Assembly: GCA_902519625.1 (NCBI GenBank)
Contig: CABYKS010000004.1
Location: 1 to 49,481 of the forward strand
Direction of reading: 5' to 3'
From: an uncultured Pelagibacteraceae bacterium
Lineage (GTDB): Bacteria; Pseudomonadota; Alphaproteobacteria; Pelagibacterales; Pelagibacteraceae
Length of the DNA: 49,481 nucleotides
The notes under the pieces are model-generated. The model had not been told where the DNA came from. It searched no databases and was given only the letters and a program-made list of their open reading frames with translations. Made by a program: the position numbers and the translations under genes. Shown piece by piece: positions 19,117 to 23,855 of the stretch. Position 1 is the stretch's first letter, and every line of letters begins with the position of its first letter.

Positions 19117-20952
19117 GTGGAACGAATTATTACAAAATCATTTGCTAGATTAATGGGCCGTGGGGTTCATAGAGGTTTTATTACTTACGAAGAGTTGAAC
19201 AAATCTTTAGGCAAAAGAAACCTATCAAATGAAAATTTATCCCAAGCGTTTCTGCACATCTTAGATGGTAAAATTTCTTTAGTTGAAAAAAAATCTGATT
19301 ATAAAACTTTAAGAAAAAAAGAATCTTCATCTAAGGAAGAAGGCAAAACTATAGAAAAAAGTGATGATCCCATAAGAATGTACCTAAGAGAAATGGGAGG
19401 AGTAGAACTTTTATCAAGAGAAGGCGAAATTGCTATTGCAAAAAGAATAGAGGCTGGGAAAGATGTGATGCTTAATGCATTGTCTCAAAGTCCAATTACC
19501 GCTCAACAACTTTTTGAATGGGATAAAAAACTTAATAGTGATGAAATTTTAGTTAGAGAAATAATTGATATTGACACAAATTATACTGAAGACGAAGATA
19601 CTGGAACAAGCAGTAAGCAAAAAAAACCTGATACTGATCAAGCTGATGAAAATTCTAGAGAAAATCAAGATAATTCCGATGATGAGTTTAACCCAACTCT
19701 TGCAGCAATGGAAAGCGAGATAAAACCAAAAATTTTAAAGACAGTAAACACTCTTACAAAAGAATACACCAAGCTTATTAAGTACCAGGAGGAAAAATTG
19801 AAATGTGTGTTGAGTTCACAATTATTTTCTACTTCTAAAGAAAAAAATTATCAAAAAATAGTCGAAAATATTCTTAAAAATATTAAATCATTACAACTAT
19901 CTCCATCTGTTTTAGAAGAATTAGTGCAAAAACACTATGTAGAAAATAGAAAAATAATTTCTCTTGAGGGAAATTTGTTAAGATTGGCTTTAAATAATAA
20001 AATATCTAGAGAAGAATTTATTAAGTTTTATGTTGGTAATGAAATAAATCCAAATTTAAAAGTATTTTTAGGAACCAATGAAATTTGGAAAAAATTTTTA
20101 CAAAAAAATAAAGATGAATTTAAGAATACTAGAGAAAGATTAGTAGAAATAAGTAAAAAACTTGGAATCTCTGTTACTGATTACAAAAAGTTGGTCAGTA
20201 GAATCCAAAAAGGTGAAAAAGAATCTAGAATAGCCAAAAAAGAAATGGTTGAAGCCAACCTTAGATTGGTAATTTCAATCGCCAAAAAATACACAAATAG
20301 AGGTTTGCAGTTTTTAGATTTAATTCAAGAAGGAAATATTGGGTTAATGAAAGCAGTTGATAAATTTGAGTATAGAAGAGGATACAAATTTTCTACTTAT
20401 GCGACCTGGTGGATAAGACAGGCAATCACTAGATCAATTGCAGACCAGGCCAGAACTATAAGAATACCAGTTCATATGATTGAAACAATTAATAAAATTG
20501 TTAGAACACAAAGATTAATTTTAAGTGAATTTGGCAGAGAAGCAACACCAGAGGAATTATCAAAAAAACTTAGAATGCCTCTAGACAAAGTGAGAAAAGT
20601 TTTAAAAATTTCAAAAGAACCCGTCTCTTTAGAAAAACCTGTTGGAGATGAAGAAGACAGTAGTCTTGGAGATTTTATAGAAGATACAAAAGCATTAGCG
20701 CCATTAGAACAAGCTATTAAATCTAATTTGAGCGAAGCAACAACTAAAATTTTATCTACTTTAACTCCTAGAGAAGAGAGAGTTTTAAGAATGAGATTTG
20801 GGGTAGGAATGAATACTGATCATACTTTAGAAGAAGTTGGATTGCAGTTTTCTGTAACTAGAGAAAGAATTCGACAAATTGAAGCCAAAGCACTTAGAAA
20901 ATTAAAGCATCCTAGTAGATCAAAACAATTAAAAAGTTTCTTAGAAAGCTAA
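19117..20952 (+). CDS. rpoD: RNA polymerase primary sigma factor RpoD (GTG start)
   Basis: Housekeeping sigma70. 611 residues. Seen: region 1.1 ([20 protein letters not shown]), region 1.2 ([20 protein letters not shown]), a long acidic non-conserved insert, region 2 ([20 protein letters not shown] and [19 protein letters not shown] for -10 binding), region 3, and region 4 ([20 protein letters not shown]) for -35 recognition. No ATG exists in this frame upstream, where a TAA lies at 19048, so GTG 19117 is the best start; it has no strong ribosome binding site. The macromolecular synthesis grouping with dnaG is conserved. tRNA-Val begins 6 bp after its stop. Confidence 0.96.
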
Positions 20953-20958
20953 ACATTT

Positions 20959-21033
20959 GGGCCGTTAGCTCAATAGTAGAGTACTGCATTGACATTGCAG
21001 GGGTAGTTGGAGCGTAACCAACACGGCCCACCA
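20959..21033 (+). tRNA. tRNA-Val(GAC) with non-canonical D- and T-loops
   Basis: 75-nt cloverleaf: 7-bp acceptor stem GGGCCGT/ACGGCCC, D stem GCTC/GAGT (68-71 and 79-82 of 20,9xx), anticodon stem CTGCA/TGCAG with loop TTGACAT (anticodon GAC at 20991-20993), a T stem GTTGG/CCAAC (21006-21010, 21018-21022), discriminator A and encoded CCA. Odd: the T-loop is AGCGTAA instead of the near-universal TTCRANN, and the D-loop AATAGTA has a single G instead of GG. Only C56 and the purine at 57 are kept. Stems are intact, so it is not simple decay. It is probably read through from rpoD. Confidence 0.8.
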
Positions 21034-21094: not shown

Positions 21095-21171
21095 GGGCCT
21101 GTAGCTCAGTTGGTTAGAGCAGTACACTCATAATGTATTGGTCCCAGGTTCGAGTCCTGGCGGGCCCACCA
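21095..21171 (+). tRNA. tRNA with CAT anticodon, probably tRNA-Ile2 (or elongator Met)
   Basis: 77-nt canonical cloverleaf with acceptor GGGCCTG/CGGGCCC, D-loop AGTTGGTTA, anticodon loop CTCATAA, variable loop TGGTC, T-loop TTCGAGT and encoded CCA. The G1-C72 pair and lack of three G-C pairs below the anticodon exclude initiator tRNA. The TTGGTC after the anticodon stem and the acceptor sequence resemble lysidine-modified tRNA-Ile2 more than elongator tRNA-Met, but the two are hard to separate by eye. Confidence 0.85.
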
Positions 21172-23414: not shown

Positions 23415-23771
23415 GCCAGATAAATGACTTATCGCTTTAATTAATTTTGAAGAGGAAAGTCCGGGCTCTACAAAGACACAGTGCCAGTTAATGGCTGGCG
23501 GGGGTAACCCCAGGGACAGTGCCACAGAAAATAAACCGCCTCATCAAGGCAAGGGTGAAAAGGTGTGGTAAGAGCACACCGGCTGTTTGGTAACAAGCAG
23601 CGCATGGAAAACCCCACTGAGAGCAAAACTGAGTAGAGATGACATTGTTAGAAATAACTAAAAGCAGTCTTTGGCTAGTCATCAGGGTTAGTTGCTTGAG
23701 CCTTAAAGTGATTTAAGGCCTAGAGAAATGGTAAGTTTAAATGACAGAACCCGGCTTATAGTTTATCTGGC
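23415..23771 (+). ncRNA. rnpB: RNase P RNA, bacterial type A
   Basis: Catalytic RNA that removes 5' leaders from pre-tRNAs. Seen: conserved block GAGGAAAGTCCGGGCT near 23452-23467, the GGTAAGAGCACACCGGC block near 23577, TTGCTTGAGCC near 23691, and the universal ACAGAACCCGGCTTATAG near 23744-23761. The ends are set by helix P1: GCCAGATAAA (23415-23424) pairs perfectly with TTTATCTGGC (23762-23771). About 357 nt. The GGT that binds tRNA 3' CCA in loop L15 is not obvious (see findings). It fills most of the 549 bp between the amidase gene and mraZ. Confidence 0.95.
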
Positions 23772-23855
23772 ACTTCTTATATAATAAAAAAAATTTCAAT
23801 AAAACGTTTCATTTTTGTTCTTACAAGTAAGATTTAAGGGTCAAAATATTAGGTA

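Follow-up and report, generated by a model that had tools for sequence, protein, structure and literature searches.

The tRNA-Val(GAC) gene of an uncultured Pelagibacteraceae bacterium very probably encodes a functional elongator tRNA in which A18.G55 and A54.U58 take the place of two of the usual elbow contacts. The gene lies in a 49,481-nucleotide stretch of contig CABYKS010000004.1 (assembly GCA_902519625.1), the whole of which is referred to here as the window; the genome to which it belongs is 58% complete. The contacts that are replaced, G18-Psi55 and T54-A58, are regarded as near-universal, and we judge the molecule to be a tRNA with rewired tertiary contacts. Elbows with A18/G55 are called odd and those with G18/U55 normal; g1 is the window's own genus, and labels such as G000 denote genomes.

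The window tRNA and its elbow

The gene occupies positions 20959..21033 of the + strand and forms a full cloverleaf with an encoded CCA according to ARAGORN, direct reading, the Rfam tRNA model and minimum free energy (MFE) folding. ARAGORN called tRNA-Val(gac) at exactly 20959-21033, and the MFE structure is a complete cloverleaf of -28.6 kcal/mol (z -3.29). Covariance-model scoring, proposed as a check in the preliminary description of this DNA, gave 53.6 bits with the Rfam model, above the gathering threshold of 29 and below the 72.7 bits of the adjacent tRNA-Met(CAU) (21095..21171, + strand), which has a normal elbow, lies 61 bases downstream and serves as an internal control. Direct reading yielded an acceptor stem of GGGCCGU/ACGGCCC, a D-stem of GCUC/GAGU, a T-stem of GUUGG/CCAAC and an anticodon arm of CUGCA-UUGACAU-UGCAG, together with U33 and A73, which bears out the earlier statement that all four stems pair and that CCA is encoded.

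Departures from the norm are confined to the elbow, namely the D-loop, the T-loop and A48. The D-loop AAUAGUA (20972..20978, + strand), numbered by alignment with relatives, reads A14 A15 U16 A18 G19 U20 A21, with A18 (20975) in place of G18 and with G19 retained (20976). The T-loop (21011..21017, + strand) is AGCGUAA, or A54 G55 C56 G57 U58 A59 A60, replacing UUCRANN; direct reading agrees here with the AGCGTAA reported previously instead of TTCRANN. The variable loop GGGUA (21001..21005, + strand) places A48 at 21005, and positions 15/48 are A/A versus the usual R/Y. Compared with the canonical elongator elbow (G18-Psi55, G19-C56, T54-A58 and R15-Y48), the SAR11 tRNA-Val is alike in its cloverleaf, G19-C56, G53-C61, CCA and anticodon arm, whereas G18-U55 and U54-A58 are absent and A18/G55, A54/U58 and A15/A48 are found in their stead. 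The elbow had been called abnormal from the outset, as ARAGORN, the Rfam model, direct reading and the copies in relatives all confirm. The preliminary description had further held that a single D-loop G replaces G18-G19 and that the usual elbow contacts cannot form. One G is indeed lost, namely G18 (now A), and the second statement is correct for 18-55 and 54-58; it is incorrect for 19-56, because the retained G is G19 and the outer G19-C56 pair is still possible.

The elbow is no sequencing or assembly error, since identical or stem-covarying copies of the tRNA recur in many genomes, including the single-contig genomes G012, G102, G106, G107 and G213. The sigma-70 family gene rpoD (19117..20952, + strand), a frequent neighbour of tRNA-Val(GAC) in relatives and the tree marker used below, ends 6 bases before the 5' end of the tRNA (window 20952-20959), and so small a gap suggests that the tRNA may be processed from the rpoD transcript. 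A class A RNase P RNA is located at 23416-23774, about 2.4 kb downstream of the tRNA.

In the proposed elbow, A18.G55 would substitute for G18.U(Psi)55 and A54.U58 for U54.A58; the outer G19-C56 pair is kept, so that the flat stacking face offered to the L1 stalk of the ribosome and to RNase P should remain. One review describes the G19-C56 face as a contact surface for the ribosome, RNase P and T-boxes, and terms Psi55 universally conserved (PMC4810234). T54, Psi55 and Gm18 are impossible on tRNA-Val(GAC) because their target bases are absent. As a SAR11 elongator the tRNA would read GUU and GUC, its charging and ribosomal use being deduced from the sole GAC copy seen; the three-dimensional pairing of A18.G55 and A54.U58, like expression and charging, is predicted from sequence.

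Distribution and switching of the elbow in Pelagibacterales

A DNA search of 101 genomes, the window's own included, gave matches in 51, from which 48 tRNA-Val(GAC) genes were read; 47 of these are odd. The locus after rpoD, whose comparison across SAR11 had been suggested earlier, is shared to the extent that in 30 of the 48 the DNA match covers the rpoD end and continues into the tRNA. The elbow pattern with the anticodon left free was found in at least 120 genome-contig stretches; all 120 matches listed are tRNA-Val(GAC), and the 80 titles listed among the matches are all Pelagibacteraceae, Pelagibacterales or Pelagibacter. Within the order, a tRNA-Val(GAC) pattern with either elbow matched in 277 of the 397 genomes searched, and among the matches listed the D-loop is AGUGGUA (normal) in family f2 and mostly AAUAGUA in the window's own genus. 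In a class-wide sample the elbow pattern occurred in 3 of 385 genomes, all of the same genus as the window, while a phylum scan for GGAGCGTNACC followed by CCA gave 33 matching places spread over 31 of 299 genomes; of the 30 that were retrieved, only the window's own tRNA passed the stem filter.

Beyond g1, tRNA-Val(GAC) is normal in g5 (three genomes), g6 (one), g9 (three) and g10, g11 and g12 (one each). In g8 it is normal in four of the five genomes read and odd in G133, with the pattern also matching G276, G306 and G354; the g7 genomes G213, G155 and G378 have odd copies. Covariance-model re-search of 46 genomes, 41 of them g1 genomes lacking a pattern match, recovered the gene in nine of the 41 and in the f2 genome G082 (normal). 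The nine comprise normal copies in G214, G258, G302, G333, G121 and G428, odd copies in G221 and G260, and an intermediate in G242. The G428 gene (L278) has a body of g8 type and lies on a contig other than that of rpoD, and is likely to be a replacement. No tRNA-Val(GAC) was found by the re-search in g1 genomes G127, G167, G190 and G185 (92-97% complete), in g7 genomes G115 (99%) and G166 (95%) or in f2 genomes G065 (93%) and G069 (92%).

The stems argue for selection. Eleven distinct tRNA-Val(GAC) sequences (seven odd, four normal) were aligned, and standard pairs fill 231 of 231 pair cells, so the mismatched stems of a decaying gene or pseudogene are not found. Both sides have changed in 12 of the 21 stem pairs with pairing at 100%, and the covariation score of the stems was reached by none of 500 shuffles of this alignment. 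The original view that the intact stems reflect selection and not decay is thus supported by the two-sided changes and by the odd elbow in 47 of 48 copies. Among 35 distinct Pelagibacterales sequences, 20 have G18/U55 with U54/A58 and 14 have A18/G55 with A54/U58; the remaining one, from G242, is the intermediate, with A18/G55 and U54/A58. No mismatched 18/55 combination occurs among the 35, and G55 is paired with A18 in all 15 distinct G55 sequences. Since a change on one side of a contact goes with a change on the other, the odd elbow has the appearance of a functional alternative design rather than of a gene in decay. All 14 distinct odd sequences have either AGCGUAA or AGCGUUA as T-loop; A18 G19 is constant, with minor changes elsewhere in the D-loop. 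The odd copy of G221 and the normal copy of G333 have their acceptor and anticodon stems in common, the differences between them lying in base 18 and the T-arm.

The rpoD tree covers 29 genomes, and 27 of these carry an elbow label (not counted were the intermediate in G242 and genome G115, which is without the tRNA). On it the elbow state needs six changes, and as five are forced by well-supported branches, at least five took place. Label shuffles were as low in 13 of 500 cases for the normal state and 14 of 500 for the odd state, on a tree of one gene that is often the neighbour of the tRNA itself, in a group that recombines freely. Normal copies in G361, G121, G302, G258 and G214 directly adjoin rpoD, as do odd ones in G221 and G260, which indicates a switch at one locus, by mutation or recombination. 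The g7 copies in G155 and G378 (L229, L228) are identical to the copy in g1 genomes G106 and G007. Between G378 and the window, RpoD identity is only 67%, yet the tRNA-Val(GAC) of G378 is a g1 form, making transfer between genera likely in this case; the copies of G378, G213 and G133 are not near rpoD.

Other altered elbows, TruB and viral tRNAs

A second elbow swap in SAR11 is found in tRNA-Phe(GAA), which combines A18 and G55 with a UGCGA T-loop and normal U54/A58 (G000:C2:63455-63526, L005; also L615, L633 and L646). It is present in g1 (G000, G012, G102, G107, G121, G167), g8 (G116, G118, G133, G152) and g9 (G148, G219, G284). The tRNA-Phe of G106 (g1), G430 (g12), G328 (g10) and G101, G105, G312, G213 and G115 (g5, g6, g7) is normal. 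A third isotype with A18/G55 is the tRNA-His(GTG) of G101 (L626), with D-loop AGTTAGTTA and T-loop TGCAACT (UGCAA).

TruB makes pseudouridine 55. By HMM search, on which TruB absence here rests, the NCBIfam TruB model matched none of five g1 and none of two g8 genomes versus 7/7 in g5, g6, g7 and f2, with controls positive in 14 of 14. Pfam TruB_N (PF01509) matched 10 of 143 genomes of the family (those at least 90% complete plus the window's own), all ten belonging to g5, g6 or g7; 133 had no match, 20 of these being named. Genera g1, g8 and g9 group together on the rpoD tree, so one TruB loss could explain the pattern. Without Psi55 there would be one reason fewer to retain U55, so TruB loss is plausible as a permissive step that made the change of U55 to G affordable, with exceptions. 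The g7 genomes G213, G155 and G378 have TruB and an odd tRNA-Val, and G101 has TruB yet an A18/G55 tRNA-His; conversely, TruB is missing from G106, whose tRNA-Phe is normal, and from the g8 genomes G116 and G118, whose tRNA-Val is normal. The link is probably a correlation resting on few events and weak as a cause, and the association of TruB with tRNA-Phe could be one ancestral event.

The same loops occur in viral tRNAs. IMG/VR stretches were selected for an AGCGU[A/U]A T-arm in two main scans of at least 120 stretches each, so the viral counts are not prevalences. The scan for T-arm plus CCA, with a cloverleaf filter, gave at least 188 sites in at least 154 stretches, with at least 164 distinct tRNAs and 23 anticodons; among the matches listed nearly all D-loops have A18 G19, and tRNA-Val(GAC) is among the tRNAs with the odd D-loop/T-loop pair. 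Hits L301-L303 were discarded as not being tRNAs. L362, part of L338 and L522 have no near match among named phages, and a BLAST search of named phages with the window tRNA as query returned only weak partial matches in 16 records.

In 232 selected IMG/VR stretches, a parser blind to loop sequence collected 1051 distinct tRNAs with a cloverleaf. It accepted a variable loop of four or five bases together with CCA, complete acceptor (7/7), D- (4/4) and T- (5/5) stems, at least four of five anticodon-stem pairs and U33, and dropped all other tRNAs. The elbow rule scored was that U55 goes with G18, that G55 goes with A18 and that base 19 is the Watson-Crick partner of base 56. It was obeyed by 1036 of 1051 tRNAs (maximum of 889 in 1000 within-stretch T-loop shuffles) and by 172 of the 178 that are not U55 C56, for which the shuffles had a mean of 80.5 and a maximum of 96; the high mean arises because the test permits three D-loop placements. 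When tRNAs matching the scan patterns were removed, 97 of 102 such cases still obeyed. By bases 55-56 and 18-19, UC goes with GG in 864 of 873, GC with AG in 133 of 134 and UU with GA in 30 of 30; the rare classes are UA/GU (4/4), UG/GC (2/2), GU/AA (1/1), GA/AU (2/2) and CC (0/5). The rule-breakers as scored are five C55, one G55 and nine U55 C56 tRNAs.

The viral 54-58 pairs are U/A (820), A/U (147), A/A (36), G/G (23), C/A (20) and others (5). A48 accompanies A54 in 65/184 cases and U54 in 58/822, and base 60 is a purine in 171/184 versus 24/822, an association resembling that of eukaryotic tRNA-Ala (PMC7566577). Phage tRNA arrays (L298-L300, L334-L562) contain A19-U56, U19-A56 and C19-G56 swaps and 54-58 pairs of G/G, A/A and C/A. 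In L298 and L299 there are tRNA-like genes that ARAGORN did not call, whose T-loop is AGCGUUA and whose D-arms look very small when read by eye. Among isolates, the complete genome of Pseudomonas phage 16Q encodes a tRNA-Ile with AAAAGUA/AGCGUUA and a tRNA-Pro with AAUAGUA/AGCGUAA. These share the D-loop and T-loop combination with the SAR11 tRNA-Val and differ from it in isotype, in their 4-base variable loops and in being phage genes, not bacterial ones. The rule is followed by the 16Q tRNA-Cys, with A19 and U56, but violated by the tRNA-Phe of this phage, with G19 and U56. Two tRNAs of Xanthomonas phage X1 have A54 but G18 and U55.

Alternative explanations and significance

The preliminary description proposed that, if tRNA-Val(UAC) reads every valine codon, the GAC gene may drift under relaxed constraint or have acquired another role. 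A normal tRNA-Val(UAC) is present in the genus, and the gene was not found in the genomes named above, 92-99% complete. However, about 32 of about 271 g1 genomes are without it, which by our estimate is near the expectation from draft incompleteness, and filters can miss copies. The elbow is retained genus-wide with full stem compensation, and its changes follow strict pairing rules. The product of CmoB helps a UAC tRNA to read all four codons; CmoB exceeded the cut-off in none of 14 genomes and in only one of 14 controls. GUU is the most frequent valine codon in the window (GUU 382, GUC 37, GUA 243, GUG 43), and GUU and GUC account for 419 of 705 valine codons in its 37 open reading frames of at least 150 codons, some of which may not be genes. 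In the complete genome G012 a single tRNA-Val(GAC) was seen, two of 32 tRNA hits being without locus, and as the sole GAC isoacceptor seen it should supply GUU/GUC decoding. Relaxed constraint is therefore very improbable. Slightly less probable still is a non-translational tRNA, kept from translation by weak binding to EF-Tu or the ribosome. Staphylococcal glycyl-tRNAs used for cell-wall synthesis have an altered elbow, and in the present case only one of the two valine isoacceptors is altered. Against this, besides the decoding role expected in G012, the only tRNA-Phe seen in that genome has a similar change: 28 of its 30 distinct tRNAs read have a UUCRA T-loop, the exceptions being Val(GAC) and Phe, and in the window's own genome 11 of 12 other distinct tRNAs read have UUCRA, the exception being tRNA-Phe (UGCGAUU).

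The elbow might instead be phage-derived: an ancestral SAR11 bacterium would have taken up a phage tRNA-Val of the odd kind, or only the T-arm and D-loop of one, followed by spread between genomes through recombination. This we consider rather unlikely. The odd loop pair is common in the collected viral tRNAs, including tRNA-Val(GAC), and the SAR11 gene seems mobile, given the identical copies in g1 and g7 and those away from rpoD in G378, G213 and G133. Yet the closest viral tRNA agrees at only 59 of 75 bases with any of the six SAR11 odd copies compared, normal and odd SAR11 copies have whole stems in common, the intermediate in G242 fits a change in place, and the variable loop is mostly of four bases in viral odd tRNAs versus five in SAR11. 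A further idea, tentative and less likely than not, is that of a second, interchangeable elbow code (U55/G18 or G55/A18, any Watson-Crick 19-56 pair and several 54-58 pairs). Phages and a TruB-less bacterial lineage would use it for tRNAs able to do without Psi55, T54 and Gm18 and invisible to host factors reading those bases, such as modification enzymes, quality control and tRNA-cutting defences.

Known departures differ from that in SAR11. Eukaryotic tRNA-Ala has A54/A58 and R15/A48, with A54 accompanied by A48 and purine 60 (PMC7566577). The last three occur together in SAR11 tRNA-Val too, but there U58 replaces A58 and the 18/55 pair is exchanged as well, and the same two differences separate it from eukaryotic initiator tRNA-Met (A54/A58). 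Some metazoan mitochondrial tRNAs likewise depart from the usual elbow, being without elbow structure according to a review (PMC4810234); in SAR11 the contacts are replaced in matched pairs on full-length arms, whereas the mitochondrial structure is missing. No description of A18/G55 elbows in phage or SAR11 tRNAs was recognized in titles and abstracts, a scope outside which bioRxiv and most subscription journals fall. In a word search of the elbow and T-loop reviews, 'phage' occurred in neither, and 'A18' and 'G55' were absent from the T-loop review.

In a very abundant ocean group, what is apparently the sole tRNA reading GUU and GUC has had two tertiary pairs replaced, repeatedly and with matched partners, which provides a natural comparative data set on which elbow contacts matter. 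The viral tRNAs point to a large pool of altered-elbow phage tRNAs, some of them missed by ARAGORN. For SAR11 itself, the finding suggests that a host tRNA can dispense with Psi55, and the relation between elbow change and loss of TruB becomes a testable link.
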